From: Pectobacterium zantedeschiae
GTDB taxonomy: Bacteria > Pseudomonadota > Gammaproteobacteria > Enterobacterales > Enterobacteriaceae
Assembly (NCBI RefSeq): GCF_004137795.1
Contig: NZ_NWTM01000001.1
Location: 744,001 to 808,000, forward strand
Direction: 5' to 3'
Length of the DNA stretch: 64,000 bases
Of this stretch, positions 19,072 through 45,782 are shown one piece after another. Both the position numbers and the translations under genes were made by a program. Positions within the stretch are counted from its first letter, which is position 1, and the number at the start of each line of letters is the position of its first letter. Below the pieces are notes generated by a model. It was not told the origin of the DNA, ran no database searches, and saw only the letters and a list, made by a program, of their open reading frames with translations.

Positions 19072-19635
19072 CTATGATCCTATCCCACTGTGCATCGGAT
19101 GCCAGCCATTTCCTTCTTTCGCGCTGTAGCTAACATTCTGTAGAGGGACAAGTTTCCACTGACCATGGCTGTCTTTCACCATCTCGCTGGCCTGCACACG
19201 GCACTGGTAATGTAAGGTATCGGCTTCCAACTGGAACTGATATTTTTTGCCTTTTTCGGGAACAAAGCGAGTGGTAATAAGGCATGAGTATTTACTTTCA
19301 ACATAAACGTTGATAATCGCTGTTTCAACCCCTGGAACTAATGGTGTTTCGTAGTAGTCGATATCGTATTTTTCTCCAGATATTTTTGGCATTCCGCGAT
19401 CCTGGGTGTTTTGTAAAACCCATTCACTGGAACGAATAAGACCGCCAGTGCGTTTGCCGTTTAACGTCTGGTAGATACTTGTCTGTTCGGTATTATCTAC
19501 AATACGTACCCACGGAGAATTATTGCTTTCATTGGGCGGAATGAAAAAAGAGTTGTTTGGCATAATAGAACAGCCTGAAGAGAGGAGTGTTATCATTGCC
19601 AGATTATTTCGCAGTAACTTTTTCACTTGTTTCAT
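19072..19635 (-). CDS. Uncharacterised lipoprotein downstream of the CDI locus
   Basis: The product has 187 residues. The N-terminus carries a lipoprotein signal with lipobox LSSGC (Cys22). The residues after Cys are Ser-Ile, so no inner-membrane retention Asp is present and an outer-membrane location is likely. The rest has beta-strand-like alternation and three further Cys (SKYSC, LHYQC). I do not recognise the family. It lies 135 bp beyond the putative immunity gene in the same direction, across a strong hairpin, so it may be a separate unit or a downstream accessory gene of the CDI operon. The ribosome site is poor (AGGA touches the ATG). Confidence 0.7.
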   Translation of the reverse strand: MKQVKKLLRNNLAMITLLSSGCSIMPNNSFFIPPNESNNSPWVRIVDNTEQTSIYQTLNGKRTGGLIRSSEWVLQNTQDRGMPKISGEKYDIDYYETPLVPGVETAIINVYVESKYSCLITTRFVPEKGKKYQFQLEADTLHYQCRVQASEMVKDSHGQWKLVPLQNVSYSAKEGNGWHPMHSGIGS

Positions 19636-19703
19636 TCCTAATGGGTTTGAAAAGTAATTGGTATTCTACAGTAACGCTGCTCTCAGTTTTTTAAGACTAA
19701 CAG

Positions 19704-19724
19704 CTCCCCACCAAAGGTGGGGAG
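19704..19724 (-). terminator. Strong hairpin after the CDI operon
   Basis: A perfect 9-bp stem (CTCCCCACC / GGTGGGGAG) has a 3-nt loop. No T tract follows directly, so it may be a weak terminator or an mRNA-stabilising structure. Confidence 0.45.
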
Positions 19725-19770
19725 TGCAATATTATAAAGGAGTCATAATTTTAATTAGCGTATTCCGTTA

Positions 19771-20253
19771 TCATTTAATTGGTTGTAAAGAAACCGCTAT
19801 TTCCAGCACTATATCAGAATAGCATTTATCGCCATTGGCTGATGTTCTCTTAAGTTCATCAAGTGCATAAACGATATCCACCCTGGCTCCCGGGCGGAAC
19901 AGCTTCTTATCTTCATCATCGATATGGTGATAAATGCTTTCTTCAATGACAGAACCATCATCCATCAGCAAACTGAAACAGTTATCTACCGGAGATGGAT
20001 CTTGTCCTGCCACATAGGTTCTTGTGATCGTGCCAGATCTGTGCAGCAAACGCATTTTTCCCTGTTCAATGCTATTCCACCACTCGGATGAGCCAAAAAG
20101 ACCATTGGCTCCCTTCAGGCCCATGGCTGGTCTTGATGGATCGAGAGTCAGAGCCTGTGTTAAAGCCACTTGCTCAGGGTCCCCTCTGAGTTCTTCTGAA
20201 AGAAGATAGACAATTTTCATAGGGTGTTTCGAGTTTTCAAGATTTAACAGCAT
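19771..20253 (-). CDS. cdiI: Putative CDI immunity protein
   Basis: The product has 160 residues and is acidic and soluble, with no export signal. By position it is the immunity gene: it begins 12 bp after the cdiA stop, and AGGAA within that gap is its ribosome site, so it should be co-translated with the toxin end. CDI immunity proteins are family-specific and bind the CdiA C-terminal toxin in the cytosol. I do not recognise this family from sequence. A later Met (MKIVYLL, codon 12) lacks a ribosome site, so the first ATG is used. Confidence 0.7.
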   Translation of the reverse strand: MLLNLENSKHPMKIVYLLSEELRGDPEQVALTQALTLDPSRPAMGLKGANGLFGSSEWWNSIEQGKMRLLHRSGTITRTYVAGQDPSPVDNCFSLLMDDGSVIEESIYHHIDDEDKKLFRPGARVDIVYALDELKRTSANGDKCYSDIVLEIAVSLQPIK

Positions 20254-20265
20254 AATGCTTTCCTG

Positions 20266-23200
20266 TTATTTAACCTGTTCAAAATGGACGATGTTTTTAT
20301 TAAAAATCTCCATTCCTTTGCCTTGTCCAAGTTGTGTCGTCATCTGTCCTCCTTCAACCTTGAAGCGAGTATTTGTTTCCATCCATTTACCCGTTTGGGT
20401 GGACATGTTGGGCAATTCTTTAGCTGCGGCACTGTTTGCGGCAATACCAATTTTTTCCAATTCGGAGAAAGTGCCTGATTTAACAGTGATTTTCACGGTT
20501 ATACCATCGTACTTAGAAGAGTATGATAGCACTGGAGAAACTGATGTTTCAGTGGTCGCTGGCATCACCCCTGTTCTTTCAAACTGCCTGAATTGCTCAG
20601 GTGACATCGTCCGATAAACAATTTCATTGCCATGAACATCACGTTGCTGAACGGGACTTAGCGGATTTTTAGCTGTCGTCGCAGGAGTACCAATGGTACC
20701 CGATGTACCCTTACCGCCTGACTGTGTTTTTTGTACGACTTTGTTGAACGCCATACCCGCAGCAAATTTTACAACTTCCTGCGCCGATGCACCATTATCG
20801 TATAAGCTGAGGATCCCATTGACATCAATAGGCGTCATCGCTGAGGTAATGATATCGTTTTTCAGTGCCAGCTCACGGATTTTCTCATCGCTCAGTCCCT
20901 GTGCTTTCCATTCGGCAAGTTGTTCACTGCCCTTAATGGCGGCGACATACGGATTGCCAGCGACGCCCATTGGAGTCCAGTCAATGCCTGTCTGCGTATA
21001 GATGTCACCGATGAATCCAGAGTAATCAGAATCTAGCTGGCCCTGTCGCGCACCATACATCATCGTTCTGGCATAATCTGTTACGAGATAGCCGAACTCA
21101 TCAGCCGTTATTGCCCCAGATTTATACATCGCGACCAGCTTTTCGCCCGCTTCTTTTTCCAATTTACGGTACTCATTGCGGATATCGGTCTGGCATTTAC
21201 CATTAGAGCCACAGGCAGTAAAGCGTTCCTGTAGTTCATCCATACCACCGATACCAGCGGCTTTTAGTTTTTCATACAGCGCGCGGCCTTCTTTACTCAG
21301 TTTCTCAACGCCGTACTTATTGGACAGCAGGTTATAATCAACTGCATTTTTACCTGCATCATGTCCTGCTACCGCGCCTGCAGAAGAATCGCTCGCCAGA
21401 CCTGCCGCCATGGTTGCTGCCAGAGATGCCAGATTACTGACTTTCGCCCGTTCATCATCAGTAAGTGACTCAACCGTTCTGTTTGGATAGAGATAGTCGA
21501 CGATAGCGCGTGCCGCCAGTTCACCTCCCGCCGCACCGACTGCACCCGCAGTGGCGTTTGAACCAGAAAGTTCGGCCACCACGCCGCCAACGATGGCGTG
21601 ACCAATGGCATTTGCCGCGATCTGCCCGGCGGTTGGATTGTCACTATTTTGCAGGGTTAAATCGCGCACCGTGCTCGACAGATAAGGCGCGGCGCCCTGA
21701 GCCAGCGCTTTCAGTGGATCACCACCTGCCAGCGCAGTGATGGCTGCTGCGGCGGCACGAATACCTTTATTCAGCTCGCCACCCGCTTTATATTGATCGT
21801 TGATGTCCTTATACGCGGCGGTATTTTGTACACGGGCCCAGTATTCCTGACGTGTCTCCTTGGTCTCATCCCACTCACCAGCCGCTTTAATTCCTGCGTT
21901 ATTCGCCATAATCTGGCCCTGGCTCAGGGTGATATCCACGCCCTGATTAACAACGTCGCCAATCAACCGCAACTGGCTCAGACGCTGCTGTTCCTTTGCC
22001 TTATCAAAGATTGGGCTGATGCTTTGATTCGCATGCTCAACATCGCGGCTCAGTTCGCTGACATCCTGCTGCTGGTTCGCCTGGTCACGGATAATCAGCG
22101 ATCCCGGCGAAACGGCGGCATAAGTCGTACCGGAAGCATTCCCATCGCTGCCATCCGCTCCCAGACCATTGGCCGCCAGATTCTGTACGGCATTTTTCAG
22201 CAGGTCCTGTGCGCCCAGCCCACCAGTGCTGATACCGACGCTGCTGTGCGACACATCAAACTCGGCACTGTTGTCGATATTGCTGAAGCCCAGCGTACCA
22301 GTGCTGAGGCGGTTTTTATCTTCGCTGGCGGTGCTGCCAATCACTGCGCCATCCAGTTGCGTGTGGTTGCCGACGGTGATATCGAATCCGCCGTCACCGG
22401 CGAAGATACCGGTCTGCTCCTGCACACTGTTATAGGTGCTGTGGATCTTATCTTTTGCCACGCTGGCGCTGACGCTGCCAGTCATGCTGCCAAAGGTAAA
22501 GCTGGCACCCGCTGAACTGTTCTTCTGCTTCGAGTCGTAGTTATTGACGTCCTGCTCACTCTGCAGCGTCAGGTCACGGCCGACATTCGCCACCACCTTG
22601 TCGGCGCTCAGCTGTGCGCCACGCAGGGTAGTGTCACGCCCGCTGTTAACTGTCAGCTTATTACCGGCGTCGACGGTGGTTTCGGTATGCGTCAGGCCAT
22701 CGCCATTTTCGTTACCGGAACCTTTACTGGCGTTAGCAAATACGCTGATCCCCGCGCCGCCCTGACCAGCGCCGATGCTGACGCCCACGCCACCGCCGCT
22801 GCTGCTGTTTTTACCGGTCTGCAGTTGGGTATTCTGCGCCGACAGCAGGTTGATATCGCGGTTCGCCGACAGCAGCACATCGTTGCCTGCTTTCAACTGG
22901 CTGCCGCCGATGGTTAGATCGCCATCGGCGCCATTCTCTGAACCAGTCGCCACCAGGTTGATATTGTTGCCCGCCTGCACGGTACTGCCGGAAGCGTTAA
23001 CCGCTTCGCTGTGGCTCTCGCTCTTCGACTTCGAGGTGCTCAGCGACAGGCTGACGCCAATGGCATTCTGATCCGCGGTATTCTGCGAAGCCAGCACCGC
23101 GGCCTGGGCTGCCTGTATGCCCGCCAGACCGGTTTTCAGCTTTTGCAGTGACGCCATACGACTATCTTGTTGCTCATCTGCGGCTTTTGCGCTGGTGTAA

Positions 23201-26200
23201 GCGGTATTAATCGCGCTGCCGATAGCGCCGGACAGCGCCAGCGTCAGACCCGTCTGTTTACGCTCGTAAGTGGTGTCGGTGGTGCTCTGGTTATTCGCAG
23301 CATCAATGGTGATATTGTTCGCCACCATATTGATGTCGTTACCGGCGATCACATCAGAGCCCTGCACGGCAATATTATTGCCCGCCACCAGACTGGTATC
23401 GCCATCGACGCTGCCCAGCATGCTGTTGTTGTGGGTCAGCGCCGCAGTATCGGAGGTTGAACTCTCCTTAATCGAACCAACAAAGAAGCCAATGCCGCCG
23501 CTACTCATCAGGCCCGACTTGGTGGTTTTCTTCATCGACCAGCTGTCGCGGCTCTCTTCCGCCGCCGTGACATTGAGGTCATTACCGGCACGCAGCGCCA
23601 GATCCCGATCCGCCGCCACATCGCTGCCGGTGATATTCAGGTTGTTACCCGCAGTGACGGAGATATTCTCCCCGCCCAGACTGCTGCCGTTTGCCAGCGT
23701 GGTATCGTAACCGGCACGGGTGGTGGTGGTACGTTTCGACAGGAAGCCGGAGCCTTTCACCTTCGAATTCATATCCAGATATTCCTGGCTGCTGGCGCTG
23801 CCGAGGTTGATATCATTGGTGGCGGTCAGCGCAAGCTGCCGATCGGCATTCAGTTTCGCTGCTTGGGCGTTAATATTATTGCCGGCATTCAGCGAGATAT
23901 TGCCGTCACTGGTGACTTCACTGCCCTGTACCTGGGTCAGCGTCTGTGTGACGTGGTTATCTTTATCCCACACCACTTTGTCGCTGCTGCCGGTGGTGAC
24001 GGTGGTCATATTGATATCGCGGCTAGCAGCGATCTGCGTCTGACTGTTTTCACCGGAGCTGACCACCTGCGCGGCCTGAAGATTGACATCACGGCCTGCC
24101 TGCAGCAGCAGTTTGCCATCGTCACCCTGCACATACATGCCTGCCACTCGGTCGATATTGTCGCGGCTAAAGCGGTTACTGCCGTTCTGACTTTCCGCGT
24201 GGTTAGTCTCGCTGACAACGGTGATATCACGTCCGGCTTGCGCCAGCAGGGTATCGGTGGCTCGCACCGTACCGCCGGTGTCAGTGATATCGTTGGTCGC
24301 CTGCAGCGACACGGATTTACCAGCAATAATGCCGCCGACGTTAATGATATCGTCGCCGGAAACGCTGACCAACTGTGTGGCGCTGATACGTCCGCTGTTC
24401 AGCATGCCGCCGCTGACGCCAATGCTGACGTTCTTACCGGCCAGCAATGCACCGCTACCGTCCATATCGCCTTGCTGCACCTGTGCATACACCTGCGGTA
24501 CCAGCACGTTCTGGGTGGTGCCATCCGGCATCTTCACATCCTGCGCCACCAGCCACACCATATCCTGGGTGATCTGTTTCATCTGTTCGGCGGTGAGCGC
24601 CACGCCCGGCACCAGGTTGAATTTCTTCGCGAAGCTGACGCCCGATTCCATCAGGCCCTTATACTGCTCTTCATCGCTGGTGTAGTCGGCGAGATAGCGC
24701 TGGCCGACCAGCTCAACGATCTGCTCGCGCACCAGACGTTGCTCATAGAAACCATCGCCGAGGCGTTTTTGCGTGATCGATGGGTCGGTCTGCAACTGGC
24801 TCAGCATATAGTCGGAGCTCAGCCAGGTTTTCTGATTGGTGAAGCGCGGATCGGTTTCGATCAGATAGCTGCTGGTGGCATCCGGCAGGGTGGTGAACAG
24901 ACTACCGGTTGGCAGGGAAGCATCCGGTGTCATCGAACGAATGACATCGGTGTTCTGTCCGGCCACTTCCACGCGCTGCGCGGCATACTCAGCCAGCGAT
25001 GGTGCGCTGCTGGTTGCCTGAGTATTCTCCTTCATTACGCTCGGGCTGAGGCTGATGGACTGAATTTCCGTTGGTGGCGTATATGCCGAAGCGCGTGCTT
25101 TCTGGCTGTCTTTGCCTTTTTTATGGATACGATCCCATTCGATGACCTGACCGACTTTTTCCGTCAGCTTCTGGCCAGTGACTTCGGCATTCACCAGTTC
25201 CTTCACTGCCGTCAGCAGGGTGCCACCGGCAACAATCTGGCTCTTGTCGTTCAGCAGCTTATCGCCGGAGAGTGAAATCTGACCGCCCGCGATAATTTTC
25301 GCCGGGTCGCTCTGGGTGATCTGCTCTTCGCTGATGGTCTTGGTATAGCTGTACTGGTAGTAATGGTCGCGACCACACACCACGCCTGCGATACAGATAT
25401 GGCGCACTTCATCTTTGTAGAAGCTGATGTTGTAGTCGTCAGGGCTGTAGTGGACGCCATTATTCAGGCTCACCACCATGTACTCCTCTTTCTGCTGCTG
25501 GGACAACTGCACCATACGGGTGACGAAGTTGTCATTGATATTGTTCAACGCGGTGAAGCTCAGTGCCATATTGCCCACAGATTCGATAGTCGAACTGTGG
25601 TTGTTAATTTCGCCTGCCTTGCCGGTCGCCAGCGCGTCCGCATCCAGCGCGCCGCCGATGGCCATATCACTATCGCTGTAGATCAGGGAGTGGTCGCGGT
25701 TATTCAGCGTACCGATGCCCAGATCCAGACGCTGACGCGCCGCGATGGTGGCGCTGCTGTTATTTTCCGCCAGGTTATTCAGCGTCGCCGCACCGATCGC
25801 CAGACCGTCGCCATAAATACGGCCGGTGCCGATATTGTTGACGGTGCTAGCGTTGATTCGGGTCAGCACGCCGTCGATCAGGCCGCGGTTGCTCAGCGTA
25901 TCGCTGGCGTTCAGCGTGGTTTGCTGGGAACTCAGTTCGCCAGTGGCCTGGTTGTCGATGTTGCCGGCCTGCACATTCAGCTTACCACCGGCGCCAAGCA
26001 GCGCCGTGTTGATCAGTCTGTTGTTGACATTCAGGGTCAGATCGCCGTTCGCCAGCGTTTTGCCGGTATTGCTGAAGCCGTCGGCGAAGCTGAGATCCAT
26101 ATCGCCAAGCGACAGAATTTCACCGCTGCCATTAATCTCGCGACCGCGGAAGGTCAACTGCTGACCCGCCACCAGACGGCCACCTTCATTGCTGATACGC

Positions 26201-28059
26201 AGATCGCTGCTGGTGGCTGCGACGCGGGCGAGGGCGCTGCTGTTTTGCTGATCGAGCGTCAACTGCTTATTGGCGGAGATCTGTCCCTGATTGTTATTCA
26301 GCACCGGAGTGGCGATCGCCAGATCGCTGGCGGCGGCCAGTGTACCGTTCTGGTTATTCAGTTCACTGCTGGCGGCAACATCCAGCGAGCCGGAACCGGC
26401 CGCCATAATGGTGCCACCTTGGTTATTCAGGCTGGTGCCCTGTACGCTGAATTTTTTGGCATTGGCGGCGATGCGGCCATTCTGGTTATCAATGCTGTTA
26501 ATGCTGAGTTGCAGATCGTTGTCGCCGCTCTGTAGTAACTGGCCACCGCGGTTACTGATAACCGGCGTGCTGACCTGCAGCGTATTGGCGTTAATCACGC
26601 CGCGATCGTTGCTGAGTTTACCGGTGGAGGAGAGTTTCAAATCGCCGCTCGCCAGCATCTGCGCGTCGTCGGTGATGATATCGCTACTGCTGGTCAGAGT
26701 GACGTGATGCGCGGCGGTATCGCTGCCGCTGAGATCGATCTGGCTGGCGCTGGCGTTCAGATCGCCACCGGCCAGCGCCTGACCCTGGCTGGTCAGTTTA
26801 CCGTTGCTGGCGAGTGTCAGATTGCCGCTGTCGGCCAGGGTGCCATCGGTTTTCATCCCGGCGGCAATGGCCGCGCCTTTGCTGTTGCGGATGCTGGTGC
26901 CGCGCACACGGGTGTTGCCTTTGGCGGCGATGAGGCCGGTATTCGTCACCTCGTCGCTGGCGGTAGTACTCTGATCGCGCTGGGCAAACAGGGTGCCGCT
27001 GTTGTTAACTTTTTTACCGCCCAGCAGCAGATCCTGACCGGCATTGACCGTACCGCTGTTGACGATATCGCCATTGGCGTTAATGGTGATGTCACCCGCC
27101 TGACTGCCAAGCGTCCCTTTGTTGCTGACGCCGACCCCTTGCTCGGTCGCTACTAGGCGGATTTTACCGGCATACATGCCGCCCAACTGGGCGACGTCAA
27201 TCGCCAGCGTCGGCTTGACGTCACTGCTGTCCGTCGCGCCGCTGGCTGTGGCCGTGCTGTTATCGGCGGCCACCTCGTTTTTACCGGTGGTGACGGCCAC
27301 ATCTTTCGCCCAGATACCAGCATTGACCTTCACGGTGCGGGCAATCAGGTCGGTGTAATCCTGACGGCTGCTGTCCATGCCAGCGCCTTCCACCACGATT
27401 TCACCCTTGCCCACGCGGTAACCGCGCAGTTCACCGTTGGTCATCTGCGGCGTACCGGTGGTCAGAGTGGCGCGGTTGGCGTTAATAAAGCCACAGCCGT
27501 CGCAACTGATGCCCGCTGGGTTGGCGATGACCACCTGCGCCTTACGGCCTGCCACTTCGACATAGCCGTTCAGCTTGCTCGGGTCACGCGAGTTGACCTC
27601 GTTAAGAATAATTTTGGCTTCGCCTTTCGCCAGCCATGGGTTACCCGCCACCCAGCCACCCTGCTGGGTTTGTACCTGTTTGTGTGAGTTATTAAGAATC
27701 GCGCCTTTGTTATCGACGTCAAACTGGGTGTATTTGTTATGCGAAACGCCACCGGCGCTCGGCGTCTGGATATTAACCTGCGGCGTGCCGTTGGCGCTCT
27801 GCATCACATTCGGCTGCTGGCCGCCCGGGGCGCTCTTGTCGGCGACAATTCCGGCCGCCAGCGCCTGTGGCGCGAGCGTGATCAGGCCGAGTGCGGCCAT
27901 GGTCAGGAAGGCGGTGGGCTTCATGCGGCCAATCAGCTGGCTCAGCGTATGGCCGACGCCGTTTGCGCCGCTTTTACCCTGGCCGTGGTTGATTTCTGAC
28001 ACCACCATTAACAGGCCGCGAGCTTTGTTGAAAATGATGCGATAGAGGTTCTTATTCAC
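20266..28059 (-). CDS. cdiA: CdiA/HecA-type contact-dependent inhibition exoprotein
   Basis: The product has 2597 residues. It is the secreted filament of a two-partner system that delivers a C-terminal toxin into neighbouring cells. The GTG start has AGGGA 9 bp upstream. Domains in order: an extended signal peptide (NKNLYRIIFNKARG, cleavage near 69), a TPS secretion domain (about 80-330; NPAGI in place of NPNGI), N-terminal haemagglutinin repeats, a central receptor-binding-type region (about 1000-1250; KRLGDGFYEQRLVREQIVEL), C-terminal FHA-2 repeats, and a pretoxin region ending in AVDYN (2239-2243) where VENN is usual. The variable C-terminus is about 354 residues. Its last 125 (from EIVYRTMSPEQF) look like a separate toxin domain that I cannot assign; an ADP-ribosyltransferase-like fold is possible. 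The relatives HecA and CdiA of soft-rot bacteria act in adhesion and competition. Confidence 0.93.
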   Translation of the reverse strand: MNKNLYRIIFNKARGLLMVVSEINHGQGKSGANGVGHTLSQLIGRMKPTAFLTMAALGLITLAPQALAAGIVADKSAPGGQQPNVMQSANGTPQVNIQTPSAGGVSHNKYTQFDVDNKGAILNNSHKQVQTQQGGWVAGNPWLAKGEAKIILNEVNSRDPSKLNGYVEVAGRKAQVVIANPAGISCDGCGFINANRATLTTGTPQMTNGELRGYRVGKGEIVVEGAGMDSSRQDYTDLIARTVKVNAGIWAKDVAVTTGKNEVAADNSTATASGATDSSDVKPTLAIDVAQLGGMYAGKIRLVATEQGVGVSNKGTLGSQAGDITINANGDIVNSGTVNAGQDLLLGGKKVNNSGTLFAQRDQSTTASDEVTNTGLIAAKGNTRVRGTSIRNSKGAAIAAGMKTDGTLADSGNLTLASNGKLTSQGQALAGGDLNASASQIDLSGSDTAAHHVTLTSSSDIITDDAQMLASGDLKLSSTGKLSNDRGVINANTLQVSTPVISNRGGQLLQSGDNDLQLSINSIDNQNGRIAANAKKFSVQGTSLNNQGGTIMAAGSGSLDVAASSELNNQNGTLAAASDLAIATPVLNNNQGQISANKQLTLDQQNSSALARVAATSSDLRISNEGGRLVAGQQLTFRGREINGSGEILSLGDMDLSFADGFSNTGKTLANGDLTLNVNNRLINTALLGAGGKLNVQAGNIDNQATGELSSQQTTLNASDTLSNRGLIDGVLTRINASTVNNIGTGRIYGDGLAIGAATLNNLAENNSSATIAARQRLDLGIGTLNNRDHSLIYSDSDMAIGGALDADALATGKAGEINNHSSTIESVGNMALSFTALNNINDNFVTRMVQLSQQQKEEYMVVSLNNGVHYSPDDYNISFYKDEVRHICIAGVVCGRDHYYQYSYTKTISEEQITQSDPAKIIAGGQISLSGDKLLNDKSQIVAGGTLLTAVKELVNAEVTGQKLTEKVGQVIEWDRIHKKGKDSQKARASAYTPPTEIQSISLSPSVMKENTQATSSAPSLAEYAAQRVEVAGQNTDVIRSMTPDASLPTGSLFTTLPDATSSYLIETDPRFTNQKTWLSSDYMLSQLQTDPSITQKRLGDGFYEQRLVREQIVELVGQRYLADYTSDEEQYKGLMESGVSFAKKFNLVPGVALTAEQMKQITQDMVWLVAQDVKMPDGTTQNVLVPQVYAQVQQGDMDGSGALLAGKNVSIGVSGGMLNSGRISATQLVSVSGDDIINVGGIIAGKSVSLQATNDITDTGGTVRATDTLLAQAGRDITVVSETNHAESQNGSNRFSRDNIDRVAGMYVQGDDGKLLLQAGRDVNLQAAQVVSSGENSQTQIAASRDINMTTVTTGSSDKVVWDKDNHVTQTLTQVQGSEVTSDGNISLNAGNNINAQAAKLNADRQLALTATNDINLGSASSQEYLDMNSKVKGSGFLSKRTTTTRAGYDTTLANGSSLGGENISVTAGNNLNITGSDVAADRDLALRAGNDLNVTAAEESRDSWSMKKTTKSGLMSSGGIGFFVGSIKESSTSDTAALTHNNSMLGSVDGDTSLVAGNNIAVQGSDVIAGNDINMVANNITIDAANNQSTTDTTYERKQTGLTLALSGAIGSAINTAYTSAKAADEQQDSRMASLQKLKTGLAGIQAAQAAVLASQNTADQNAIGVSLSLSTSKSKSESHSEAVNASGSTVQAGNNINLVATGSENGADGDLTIGGSQLKAGNDVLLSANRDINLLSAQNTQLQTGKNSSSGGGVGVSIGAGQGGAGISVFANASKGSGNENGDGLTHTETTVDAGNKLTVNSGRDTTLRGAQLSADKVVANVGRDLTLQSEQDVNNYDSKQKNSSAGASFTFGSMTGSVSASVAKDKIHSTYNSVQEQTGIFAGDGGFDITVGNHTQLDGAVIGSTASEDKNRLSTGTLGFSNIDNSAEFDVSHSSVGISTGGLGAQDLLKNAVQNLAANGLGADGSDGNASGTTYAAVSPGSLIIRDQANQQQDVSELSRDVEHANQSISPIFDKAKEQQRLSQLRLIGDVVNQGVDITLSQGQIMANNAGIKAAGEWDETKETRQEYWARVQNTAAYKDINDQYKAGGELNKGIRAAAAAITALAGGDPLKALAQGAAPYLSSTVRDLTLQNSDNPTAGQIAANAIGHAIVGGVVAELSGSNATAGAVGAAGGELAARAIVDYLYPNRTVESLTDDERAKVSNLASLAATMAAGLASDSSAGAVAGHDAGKNAVDYNLLSNKYGVEKLSKEGRALYEKLKAAGIGGMDELQERFTACGSNGKCQTDIRNEYRKLEKEAGEKLVAMYKSGAITADEFGYLVTDYARTMMYGARQGQLDSDYSGFIGDIYTQTGIDWTPMGVAGNPYVAAIKGSEQLAEWKAQGLSDEKIRELALKNDIITSAMTPIDVNGILSLYDNGASAQEVVKFAAGMAFNKVVQKTQSGGKGTSGTIGTPATTAKNPLSPVQQRDVHGNEIVYRTMSPEQFRQFERTGVMPATTETSVSPVLSYSSKYDGITVKITVKSGTFSELEKIGIAANSAAAKELPNMSTQTGKWMETNTRFKVEGGQMTTQLGQGKGMEIFNKNIVHFEQVK

Positions 28060-28613: not shown

Positions 28614-30356
28614 TTAGTACTGCCAACTGAGGTTGAAACCGAGGGTGACCGGGCTGGTGTGGAAACCTTCCGGTTTGGAGAACGGCACACCGACAAACAG
28701 GTCGTAGCCGGTGTTAAAGGCGTTACCGCGCAGACCAAGCACGCCGCCCGCCAGATGTTTTCCTGCGAGGTAATCACGCGTGCCGTTTACTTCGCCGTAG
28801 TCAGCGCCGAGATACAGCTCCTGGTTAGGTAGCGGGGTGCGCCAGGCCAGATCGTTGCGCACGAACCAGCCGTGGTCGGCCGTCAGGGTGCGTTCACCAT
28901 CAAAGCCGCGCACGGTCCAGCGGTTACCAATCGACAGCTGATCCTGTGGCGTCAGTTTGGTATGGCTGATCTGGCGTAGATACTGCACGTTGTAGCGGAA
29001 GTTCTGATTGCCCAGCGTAAACGGCATATCGAGTTGTGCATTCAGCTGGAAAATTTTCGCCAGCGCGGTGCCTTCATCGAAATACTCTTCCTGCGCCGGA
29101 ATAGCGCCGAACCAGCGGGTGCCGCGCTGGTAGCTCACTGCGGCATCAAGGGTGGTGTCGCCGAAATAGTGGCGATGTTGCAGACCCAGACGCCAGGCGC
29201 TGGTTTTACGCCGCTGCACATCCACTTCGGTATCGTTGACGAAGTTCTGCGATTCGCGCGTCAGAATTTCATAGCTCATTGAGGTTTTCTGACTGCCGCT
29301 GCGGTACAGCACACGGCTCAGCTGGAAATTAAGGTTTTTGCTGTTGCCGCTGTAGTTATAGTCTTCATACGCGCCCGCCACATTCTGGTTGTAGTCGTAG
29401 CCGCTGGCGGTGACGCCCGCCATCCAGTAACCGAACGGTACGGAATAGTGCAACATGTAGTTCTTGCTGCCTTTTTCGCTGCCGGATTCAAGGTCATGGT
29501 TGCCGGAAATGTAGAACAGGTCGCTGAGTGCGAAGGGATTATCGATATACAGCGTCAGGCCGCCCTGATAACGACCGGTGGTTTCGGTGCCAGAGTCATC
29601 GAGCGTCGCGCCGAGACGCCACATTTTTTCCTGTTTCCAGGTGACGTCAATGTCGCTTTCGCCGGGCTGTTCGCCCGGAACAATCGCCATCTCTGCCTGT
29701 ACGGTGGGCACGCGTTGCAGGTTTTCCAGTCCCTGCTCAATATCACGCAAATCCAGCAGTTCGCCTTCACGCGCAGGCAGGGCGCTCCAGAGGCTCACGT
29801 AGCGATCGCTCTCTTTAGTCAGTTTGATCTGGCGCGTTTTGCCCGGAATCAGGGTGATATGCAGGGTGCCGGTTTTCAGGTTTTGCGGCGGTGCCATTAC
29901 GCGTGCGGTGACGTAGCCATGGTCGATCAGACGGTTTTGCAGTGCGCTCATCAGCAGGTTGACACCCTGAGCGCCCAGGCACTGACCTTTACCCTGATCG
30001 GCTAGCTGTTGCAGCGGGATACGCAGCCAGGAGGGGAAATCTTCTTTGCCGGTCAGTATGATGTGATACAGCGTAAAGCACTGTTGCTCCTGTGGAAATT
30101 GCAACTTAGTAAAGAATGAGGAAGGCGGCTGTAAACGCACATCAGGCGTTTGCGGCGCTAATTGTTGCTGCATCGCACGCTGGCGATCCTGCTGGTTGAT
30201 ATTCAGTTGTTCATCCACACGACCCGGTGCAGCAAGAGGCGCCATATTATTATCTGCCGCCCAGCTGCTTGCTGAGGTGGTCAATAAAATAAATAACGCA
30301 AGCTGGCTGAGACGCGCAGGTTGATACCCGTCAGTGAGTGACGCATTCCGTAGCAT
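28614..30356 (-). CDS. cdiB: CdiB/ShlB-type outer-membrane transporter of the CDI system
   Basis: The product has 580 residues. It is a TpsB Omp85-superfamily pore that secretes CdiA. A signal peptide ends near ASSWA (about 33). An N-terminal plug helix region follows, then two POTRA domains (about 90-260) and a 16-strand barrel to the C-terminal aromatic residue (NLSWQY). The signature VRGF is in [11 protein letters not shown]. It is the first gene of cdiB-cdiC-cdiA-cdiI; its stop codon lies within the ribosome site of the acyltransferase gene. Close relatives include HecB of Dickeya. Confidence 0.95.
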
Positions 30357-43945: not shown

Positions 43946-44195
43946 TTTTATCTGTGCTCGTTGCAAAAGGCGTTGCGGATGGAAAACGGTTCAGCGCAGA
44001 CGCCAACATGGTCTGCATGATCATGGCGTGTATGGTACGGATTACGGCGGCGAATGCCAGACTGTTTTACAGTGGTAACAGGAAAAGAGAGCGTCTCTTT
44101 TGTTTTGCCAGTAGTGAAATACAGCCCTTTTTGGCAAAGATATCGCTTATGACTATCCTAAAAGATGAGTGTTCAACCAAAAAGAGGAATATGTC

Positions 44196-44363
44196 GTGAG
44201 TAACAACACATCAAGAGGAACATCGTCAAGCAACCCTCAACAAGGCGGTAACTGGCCTAGCACCACCGGAAATCCATCGGGTGGCAATAGAGGTAATGCG
44301 CCTTCATCTTCAGGTGGAAATTCAGGCAAGTCAGGAGGCGGTTCTGGCAAAGCAGGGAAGTAG
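44196..44363 (+). CDS. Glycine/serine-rich 55-residue protein
   Basis: The product has 55 residues from a GTG at 44196 with AGAGGA 8 bp upstream. It is composed mainly of Gly, Ser, Asn and Pro with a basic tail (SGKSGGGSGKAGK), so it is disordered and soluble. It vaguely recalls small KGG-type stress proteins such as YciG but lacks clear KGG repeats. I do not recognise it. A strong terminator follows 14 bp after the stop, which supports it as a real short transcript unit. Confidence 0.5.
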   Translation: MSNNTSRGTSSSNPQQGGNWPSTTGNPSGGNRGNAPSSSGGNSGKSGGGSGKAGK

Positions 44364-44434: not shown

Positions 44435-44707
44435 TTATTGCGGTAAGACTTCTTCAATTTTAGTAATGTGTGCATCGCCACTCAGCGGCTTATAAATATG
44501 AATTTTCACAATTTTTAGCGGGGCTTCTGGGGTCGTTACCGTGCCTTTCGTCAGGAAGGAGTAATTCGTACCGGATACAACCTGTGTTGCAACAAATAAC
44601 GGTGTGTAAGCCACACCCAGCAAATGTACGGTAGATTTAAAAAGTGATTTATCAGCATCATTCAAATCACGGAAAGCAGTCCATCCACCAGAAAGTTGAT
44701 CTGACAT
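44435..44707 (-). CDS. Stefin-like cystatin (putative cysteine protease inhibitor)
   Basis: The product has 90 residues. The three inhibitory elements of family I25 are recognisable: an N-terminal Gly-Gly (SGGW, 7-8), the central loop QVVSGTNY (42-49; stefin A has QVVAGTNY), and a C-terminal hairpin KIHIYKPLSGDAHI that aligns with stefin KVFKSLPGQNED. An N-terminal helix region lies before the QxVxG loop, as in the cystatin fold. There are no cysteines and no signal peptide, as in stefins, so it is cytosolic unless exported by a leaderless route. Papain-like proteases of host plants, or of the cell itself, are possible targets. It is transcribed alone, against its neighbours. Function is inferred from motifs and not proven. 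Confidence 0.7.
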   Translation of the reverse strand: MSDQLSGGWTAFRDLNDADKSLFKSTVHLLGVAYTPLFVATQVVSGTNYSFLTKGTVTTPEAPLKIVKIHIYKPLSGDAHITKIEEVLPQ

Positions 44708-45261
44708 TATTTCACCTCATTTAATTTGCTTGATAACATAATCGCTGTGATGCTCTATTAAAATTTCATAGGGCAGTGAAATGAGAATAGGTCGCTTTAT
44801 TTTATTTGGCAAGAAAGTACGCCATTCCCTTTATATGAATAAGATTAAAGCATATCGAAAAATAAAAATAAGAAACTCTATATGAATTTTAATGGTGATT
44901 TTTTAAGAGGAAATTAGATTTGGTGGAAATAATTTCATTTAAAACAATATTAATTTATCTTAATCCCAAGAATCTTATGCAATAGCGTTCGGTGAACCAC
45001 ATTGCATCATGAGCGTTGATTGCCTTAATCCCCTCACGATATTTTCATTGAATGTCGTTGTATTTTTCTTCAGCCATCCACTCATTCAGTACTGTAAACA
45101 TAGCCTTGCTCGATGCTGATCAACAACTATCAGAGTAGTAAAGTATTTTAAAATAAGAATATAGGCATTCAACGTAATATATCTCTCGCGCTATGACGGC
45201 TGTCATCGGCTGAGCGGAAATTCCCACCATGCTCACGAATAAATTTAATAAAGAGGGATAA
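44708..45261. other. AT-rich non-coding stretch between the cystatin and ferredoxin genes
   Basis: It should hold the cystatin promoter at the left and the promoter of the 45262-45782 operon at the right. Only an 18-codon frame without clear support (45045-45101, minus) was seen. No RNA gene or repeat was recognised. Confidence 0.5.
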
Positions 45262-45414
45262 ATGGAAAAAGAAAAAAGTGAACGATTGAAAAATGAACAT
45301 GCGTCAGAAGACGTTAATAAAAAAGATGAGGCCGTTGATAAAGAGAATCGCGCCGATGACTCAAATAAAAGACGGCCTGGGTGTAATCGCGCGAAGTGTT
45401 TCTGTGCGCGATGA
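45262..45414 (+). CDS. Charged 50-residue protein with Cys-rich tail
   Basis: The product has 50 residues with a good ribosome site (AGAGGG, 6 bp before the ATG). The first 38 residues are highly charged, mostly Lys, Glu, Asp and Asn, and likely disordered. The last 11 are GCNRAKCFCAR with three Cys (41, 46, 48) and Arg/Lys, which could bind a metal or Fe-S cluster or be modified. It lies 32 bp before the ferredoxin gene in the same direction and probably shares its transcript. I do not recognise the family. Confidence 0.5.
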   Translation: MEKEKSERLKNEHASEDVNKKDEAVDKENRADDSNKRRPGCNRAKCFCAR

Positions 45415-45446
45415 AATAAATTTAACTGTTAAAAAAGGATGCAGAA

Positions 45447-45782
45447 ATGGCGGTTTATAACGTTAGAGATTTAACTACGGGGGCTGTAATTCAAGTTCCT
45501 GATGACGTGTGTATTTTAGATGCATTTGAAGAAGCCGGTGTTGATTCACCTTATTCATGTCGTGCTGGAGCATGCTCTTCATGTGCTGCGCTACTGATTG
45601 TCGGTTTTGTTGATCAATCAGATGGTACATTTTTAAATGATGATCAGAAAATTAGATTTATATTAACCTGTTCAGCATATCCTCAAAGTGATTGTATTAT
45701 TCGAACAGGAGTAGAAGAGCTTTTGGAGGATGAAGAAAAAGCGCACAAAGTCTTCTTTGAAGACTGGCAGCGGTGGAACTGA
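45447..45782 (+). CDS. Stand-alone plant-type [2Fe-2S] ferredoxin
   Basis: The product has 111 residues. The chloroplast-type ferredoxin signature [11 protein letters not shown] gives Cys38, Cys43 and Cys46, and Cys75 is in [21 protein letters not shown] is also typical of plant ferredoxins. The usual enterobacterial ferredoxin (isc Fdx) is adrenodoxin-type, so this is unusual. In Pectobacterium the ferredoxin-containing bacteriocins (pectocins M) carry such a domain for uptake through the ferredoxin receptor FusA. Here the C-terminus is only a 20-residue acidic/aromatic tail and no colicin M-like domain follows. It could be an electron carrier, or an orphan pectocin-type targeting domain. 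AAGGA lies before the ATG. Confidence 0.85.

Follow-up and report, generated by a model that had tools for sequence, protein, structure and literature searches.

A stefin-like cystatin gene beside ldhA in Pectobacterium zantedeschiae and its proposed role against foreign papain-like proteases

Introduction

A gene for a stefin-like cystatin in Pectobacterium zantedeschiae raises the question of which protease, one of the bacterium itself or a foreign one, its product would act upon. The gene was analysed within a window of 64,000 nucleotides (contig NZ_NWTM01000001.1, positions 744,001 to 808,000) taken from a genome of 5.06 Mb. The initial annotation, made from the sequence alone, had named a plant protease or an internal cysteine protease as possible targets and had implied that such a protein was novel. 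The stefin gene in Pectobacterium is, however, already known, since Kordis and Turk (2009; PMC2784779) listed Erwinia (Pectobacterium) among 17 bacterial genera with stefins; they also inferred horizontal transfer for the bacterial stefins and proposed that these inhibit proteases of the host. The need for more experimental data was stated in a review of 2012 (PMC3594739), and no experimental study of a bacterial stefin was recognised among titles and abstract openings of the open-access papers searched. While the family, the genus and the host-protease proposal are thus shared with the work of Kordis and Turk, the present analysis extends their 17 genera to 233 related stretches of DNA and contributes the chagasin fusions, the search for an endogenous target, the survey of the chromosomal spot and the estimate of selection described below.

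Results and discussion

The gene and its reactive-centre motifs

As summarized in Table 1, the open reading frame was found at the place and on the strand initially annotated, and both QVVSGTNY (residues 42–49) and the N-terminal Gly-Gly were located exactly where they had been claimed. According to PMC9986714, the reactive centre of this family comprises an N-terminal trunk with paired glycines and the two loops L1 and L2; at the centre of L2, stefins have Leu, whereas true cystatins have Trp. The C-terminal loop of the window protein reads IYKPLSG, and the C-terminal element proposed earlier was likewise recovered: the stretch IYKPLSGDAHIT (residues 71–82) aligned with the equivalent region of Cystatin-A2 (8gqq), albeit as a weak match (E 1), and the placement of L2 derives from such weak alignments. 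A residue count found no Cys. In agreement with the initial annotation, neither a signal peptide nor a hydrophobic N-terminus was seen by eye or by a heuristic, the latter run on near-identical copies of the protein (L029–L034).

The GC content of the gene is 0.418, versus 0.513 across the window. Its ribosome-binding site was identical in 12 of 13 aligned genomes and read AAGGTG in the other one. A scan for promoters and terminators around the gene performed no better than shuffled sequences (4 vs 4.5 and 1 vs 1.0, respectively), and the repeats found there were short two-copy matches only. Upstream, a possible but weak 5' leader hairpin was observed, with arms TGCCCT/AGGGCA or TGCTCT/AGAGCA depending on the genome; over 13 genomes 92% of its cells were paired, and one of its six pairs displayed a compensatory change in five genomes, the window copy having a C-A mismatch at that pair.

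Table 1. Positions of the features discussed (numbered within the window, except for the last two rows, which are numbered within their own loci)
Feature	Position	Strand	Basis or remark
Stefin-like cystatin gene	44435..44707	-	ATG at 44707, stop ends at 44435; 90 aa, single domain
N-terminal trunk, Gly7-Gly8	44684..44689	-	Sequence; paired glycines also in 6i1m (PMC9986714)
First binding loop L1, QVVSG (residues 42–46)	44570..44584	-	Sequence
Putative second loop L2, PLSG (residues 74–77), Leu-centred	44477..44488	-	Weak alignment to Cystatin-A2 (8gqq)
Ribosome-binding site GAGGTG	44713..44718	-	Sequence
Candidate 5' leader hairpin	44751-44775	-	Weak
Small Gly/Ser-rich ORF flanking the stefin gene	44169-44363	+	64 aa or shorter; in part of the genus; no Pfam match
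Small charged ORF flanking the stefin gene	45263-45415	+	About 50 aa; in part of the genus
Stand-alone plant-type 2Fe-2S ferredoxin	45447-45782	+	111 aa; TIGR02008, E 5e-31
Haemagglutinin-type exoprotein (2597 aa) with transporter-like partner and small downstream ORFs	20266-28059, 28614-30356, 19072-20253	-	
Chagasin (I42)-stefin fusion, L085	5701-6255		
Chagasin (I42)-stefin fusion, L039	5629-6246		

Assignment to the stefin family

When the single window protein was searched against Pfam and NCBIfam, no match was obtained even at E 10, and the comparison with Pfam Cystatin (PF00031) that had been suggested as a check on the annotation consequently returned nothing. The search of the bacterium's own genome with PF00031 was also without a match, which is uninformative either way because the control genomes likewise matched in 0/14. 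Among relatives scanned singly, PF00031 matched 17 of 53 and SQAPI 19 of 53 at E values up to 1; in a set of nine scanned in this fashion, it matched two, L035 below its cut-off of 22.2 and L052 over it (23.8). We read the miss as low sensitivity of the model and not as the loss of a family feature.

Comparison with sequences of known structure gave a different picture. In a phmmer search of the PDB sequences with the single protein, the top two matches were cystatins, 6i1m (E 0.0015) and 8gqq (E 1), and with a family profile of 7 rows the E value of 6i1m fell to 8e-8, cystatins making up 18 of the 20 matches. A profile search of this kind had been named beforehand as one that could refute the cystatin relation, and the profile of 49 rows (the window protein and 48 relatives) upheld it, with 6i1m at E 7.3e-11 and cystatins in 24 of 26 matches; a laccase (E 0.24) and C8-71 (E 1.5) made up the rest. 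Twenty-one of the 24 carry the name in their deposition, and the other three, Mialostatin, sialostatin L2 and Smolstatin, were counted as cystatins.

Over the 49 rows, the invariant columns were G7, V39, Q42, V44, G46 and N48. The invariance of QxVxG, which was present in 87 of 87 ORFs, owes something to the search itself, since this motif served as the seed of the genome scan. As for the trunk, an intact Pectobacterium copy lying outside the alignment (G002) has Ser7-Gly8 in place of Gly7-Gly8, and a copy from another genus of the same bacterial family (L158) has Gly-Glu.

The best PDB match, 6i1m, is FhCyLS-2, a stefin of the liver fluke Fasciola hepatica and a broad cathepsin inhibitor (PMC9986714). 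It resembles the window protein in its paired glycines and its Leu-type L2, with QVVAG as its L1, and differs in being secreted with a signal peptide and in having two disulfides. Like a stefin (I25A), the window protein is related to cystatins by profile and has an N-terminal Gly, QxVxG, a Leu-type L2, a single domain within the class size of about 100 aa, no Cys and no visible signal peptide; unlike the class, it does not reach a PF00031 score over the gathering cut-off. A type-2 cystatin (I25B) would fit poorly, given that no signal peptide is visible, Cys is absent and L2 has Leu, not Trp. Nor does the protein look like a chagasin (I42), a class marked by PF09394 and the NPTTG motif, as it has no Pfam match, and an I42 search of its own genome was negative. 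Profile comparison, motif placement and conservation across relatives thus support the earlier identification and, as judged from sequence, the assignment of the protein to the true stefins (type-1 cystatins, MEROPS I25A-like).

Occurrence at the ldhA spot and selection

To the survey of soft-rot bacteria that had been proposed, the present data contribute the genus Pectobacterium. ldhA was located in all 25 genomes, and the adjoining segment of 2.7 to 8.9 kb, which reached ttcA in 19 of them, was inspected. The stefin gene was intact at this spot in 13 genomes, broken or fragmentary in four (G001, G006, G010 and G011) and absent in eight, the latter having no match anywhere in the genome; G001 additionally harbours an intact second copy elsewhere (58% identical; L018, L145). 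Absence in 8/25 and breakage in 4/25 imply that the genus does not depend on the stefin. Where the gene is kept, however, it is under strong purifying selection, as indicated by a dN/dS of 0.070 over the 13 intact copies (78 pairs, pS 0.373, pN 0.035; Nei–Gojobori method, own script).

The spot can also hold a ferredoxin/pectocin module, intact or broken, which was present in 9 of the 17 genomes with the stefin or its remains vs 2 of the 8 without; this association was rejected as evidence of a link (Fisher p = 0.23). L024 encodes a pectocin-like protein of 276 aa, a 95% identical version of which lies at the same spot in G019; its N-terminal domain and the stand-alone ferredoxin of the window share about 60% identity. 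The window gene may be a free ferredoxin or what is left of a trimmed pectocin. The name pectocin for the module is our presumption, based on the match of the window gene to ferredoxins and on pectocin architecture.

Distribution of relatives

A search of 59 related genomes gave a match in 17, all of them Pectobacterium (17/25; 0/34 in the others). A wider sample of the bacterial family to which Pectobacterium belongs gave a match in 14 of 295 genomes and 9 of 154 genera, its own included, the weakest at E 1.5e-4. Genome contigs were scanned with the seed pattern V[ASR][TK]Q[VI]V[SNA]G[TMI]N, and 233 of the 265 stretches obtained encode relatives. The best 80 of these 233 (L029–L108) came from Pectobacterium, Aeromonas, Pseudomonas, Flavobacterium, Chlorobi, Oscillospiraceae, Clostridioides difficile, Alistipes and others, and seven of the 80 have two or three QxVxGxN motifs, i.e., tandem domains. 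Relatives were also found in three plasmid records, namely those of Persicobacter, Aureibacter (two tandem domains) and Bradyrhizobium (pNK6d), the last one adjoining a transposase. In a tree of 56 rows and 92 columns, of which 18 of the 53 inner branches are open, at least two changes are needed to account for the enterobacterial rows when starred branches are counted, and the copy from the Bradyrhizobium plasmid is placed among those of Pseudomonas.

The phage records searched gave no match. A profile-seeded scan of viral contigs yielded eight relatives among 25 stretches, one of which (L024/L109) is the Pectobacterium locus itself within a predicted viral contig; these relatives (L110–L116 and L024) lie on predicted IMG/VR viral contigs, some with flanks of chromosomal appearance. 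Another viral-contig match, L025, was set aside, since its similarity involved an internal repeat (AYTPLF) and was put down to chance.

Search for an endogenous target

The initial annotation had considered an internal cysteine protease as the target. Within the scope of the C1A, C1B and C13 peptidases, this proposal found no support: PF00112, PF03051 and PF01650 matched none of the 25 Pectobacterium genomes at E values up to 0.001, whereas the same models detected 3, 2 and 1, respectively, of 14 known genomes used as controls. The result departs from the supposition of Kordis and Turk (PMC2784779) that most prokaryotes possess many C1 proteases, and implies that the target of the Pectobacterium stefin is probably foreign. 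For the chagasins of Pseudomonas, most genomes of which are devoid of C1A proteases, the same line of reasoning has been followed: an inhibitor that finds no protease of its own cell to act on is directed outward (PMC5014320).

Elsewhere in the family the situation appeared mixed. Among 32 other stefin-bearing genomes that we chose from the 80 loci, 16 had a PF00112 match (0/3 in Aeromonas and 1/5 in Pseudomonas), so that endogenous targets are possible there. Long matches were confined to six genomes (G059, G060, G070, G072 with one stop, G078 and G081), while the remaining ones were shorter, lay in frames of about 400 aa and are probably C1B-like. Leaderless stefins were observed in strains of C. 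difficile (L075, L100, L102 and L108), and the two long PF00112 matches in the C. difficile genome searched (G081) make an endogenous target possible in that species.

Fusions, export features and neighbours

Chagasins are inhibitors of C1A proteases that belong to an unrelated family. In two relatives, from Saezia sanguinis (L085) and a Fusobacteriaceae MAG (L039), a chagasin domain (PF09394) precedes the stefin domain on the N-terminal side, at E 3.5e-10 and 3e-9, respectively, both over the cut-off. As the fused domain is unrelated to stefin and yet inhibits C1A proteases, these fusions hint, on separate grounds, that the stefin domain has a like biochemical role.

Two relatives from Oscillospiraceae contain S-layer domains. 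By our reading, 15 of the best 80 relatives carry a signal peptide, a lipobox or an S-layer anchor, and thus part of the family faces outward. This count started from 19 of 87 ORFs flagged by the export heuristic; four with the flagged stretch inside the cystatin domain (L084, L100, L102 and L108) were dropped, L116 was left out as a viral-contig sequence outside the 80, and L047 was added by eye. No signal peptide was seen in the members from Pectobacterium, Aeromonas and Pseudomonas.

Among neighbouring ORFs of at least 80 aa in flanks of up to about 6 kb, no family recurred in a manner suggestive of a partner. Clustering of 846 ORFs from 87 loci gave five clusters that reach three or more genera, and these were discarded as partners, being of ubiquitous types by our reading (PAS/chemotaxis, dehydrogenase, sensor kinase, ABC ATPase and EAL).

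Proposed function and alternative explanations

We infer that the stefin inhibits foreign papain-like proteases, most likely those of plants, after release by lysis or an unrecognised route, and assign a probability of roughly 0.6 to this reading as a whole. The Gly-Gly trunk, the QVVSG loop and the Leu-containing L2 would form a wedge plugging the active-site cleft of C1A proteases, which would result in reversible competitive inhibition. Plant papain-like proteases, encountered in the apoplast and in macerated tissue, would be the most likely targets, and those of insects, protists or rival microbes less likely ones; the leaderless protein would probably leave the cell by lysis or an unrecognised route. 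Such release is also supposed for the leaderless pectocins. This reading is favoured by the nearly exclusive matches to cystatins with a proven cathepsin inhibitor as the best of them, the conserved reactive-centre residues, the chagasin fusions, the low dN/dS, the lack of a partner family among the neighbours, the outward-facing members and the absence of C1A, C1B and C13 matches in the genus. A precedent is offered by P. syringae, in which the chagasin-like Cip1 inhibits immune proteases of tomato and its mutation reduces virulence (PMC5014320). Cip1 is likewise a small protein inhibitor from a bacterial plant pathogen, in a genus mostly without C1A proteases, but it belongs to an unrelated family with different motifs (NPTTG, I42), has a signal peptide, and its inhibitory activity and role in virulence were proven experimentally. 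The lack of a Sec signal in the stefin, in contrast to Cip1, stands against this reading, as do its absence from 8 of the 25 genomes surveyed, its breakage at the spot in 4 and, for the family, the PF00112 matches in half of the other stefin-bearing genomes; the many relatives from Flavobacterium, Chlorobi, Aeromonas and Pseudomonas give no pointer to plants in particular.

The missing signal peptide, shared with the members from Aeromonas and Pseudomonas, would be accommodated if the protein worked in the cytosol, as a shield or a posthumous inhibitor against non-plant proteases such as toxins of competitors or the digestive cathepsins of protists and insects acting on engulfed cells. The occurrence of relatives in many aquatic and soil bacteria, the undetected endogenous target and the lack of a recurrent toxin-like partner gene agree with this explanation, which we nevertheless consider unlikely: no delivered papain-like toxin was tied to the stefin in this analysis, and in other phyla, at least, the occurrence of members that are exported or anchored to the surface suggests a function outside the cell. 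That the cystatin fold was retained for binding another partner, in a non-inhibitory role, is improbable. Inhibitory activity was mostly lost in orthologous families of vertebrates (Kordis and Turk, PMC2784779) and the window protein is left unscored by Pfam, but conservation is among the highest at the residues required for inhibition, and in two relatives the same chain contains a further inhibitor domain for C1 proteases. Membership in the ferredoxin/pectocin cassette, as an immunity or stabilising protein for a bacteriocin, would account for the ferredoxin gene adjoining the stefin and for the module at the spot in over half of the genomes with stefin or its remains. It appears very improbable, since the module also occurs without the stefin, the two lie on opposite strands, and G002, G012, G014, G015, G016 and G018 have an intact stefin although the segment searched contains no module. 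In eukaryotes, stefins are cytosolic proteins that regulate cathepsins of the same cell, a role with which the PF00112 matches in other stefin-bearing genomes would agree; for Pectobacterium, where no peptidase of the three families was detected, the likelihood of such regulation is close to nil.

Returning to inhibition of foreign proteases, if the stefin does act on plant C1A proteases, bacteria would have, besides the chagasin-like Cip1, a second and unrelated means of disarming one and the same branch of plant immunity. Pectobacterium would be a simple test case, because no endogenous target was detected, one small protein is involved and the papain-like proteases of plants are well studied. 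A broader proposal, which we regard as quite doubtful, is that the spot between ldhA and ttcA is a plant-interface cassette site at which the plant-type ferredoxin module (pectocins) and the eukaryote-type stefin are exchanged together; both being leaderless and released by lysis, the stefin would serve as a public good that shields the released bacteriocins and enzymes from plant papain-like proteases, and, among bacteria more widely, stefins and chagasins would be mobile and interchangeable parts of a single defence against cathepsin-like proteases of foreign origin.

Chagasin genes themselves were observed in three of the 25 Pectobacterium genomes (L117 in G023, L118 in G008 and L119 in G006); the stefin is missing from one of these genomes, broken in another and intact in the third. 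The two complete chagasins, L117 and L118, have a signal peptide apparent by eye, unlike the window stefin. At some distance from the stefin gene, the window also contains the large exoprotein locus listed in Table 1, which, from its architecture, is presumably a contact-dependent inhibition locus.
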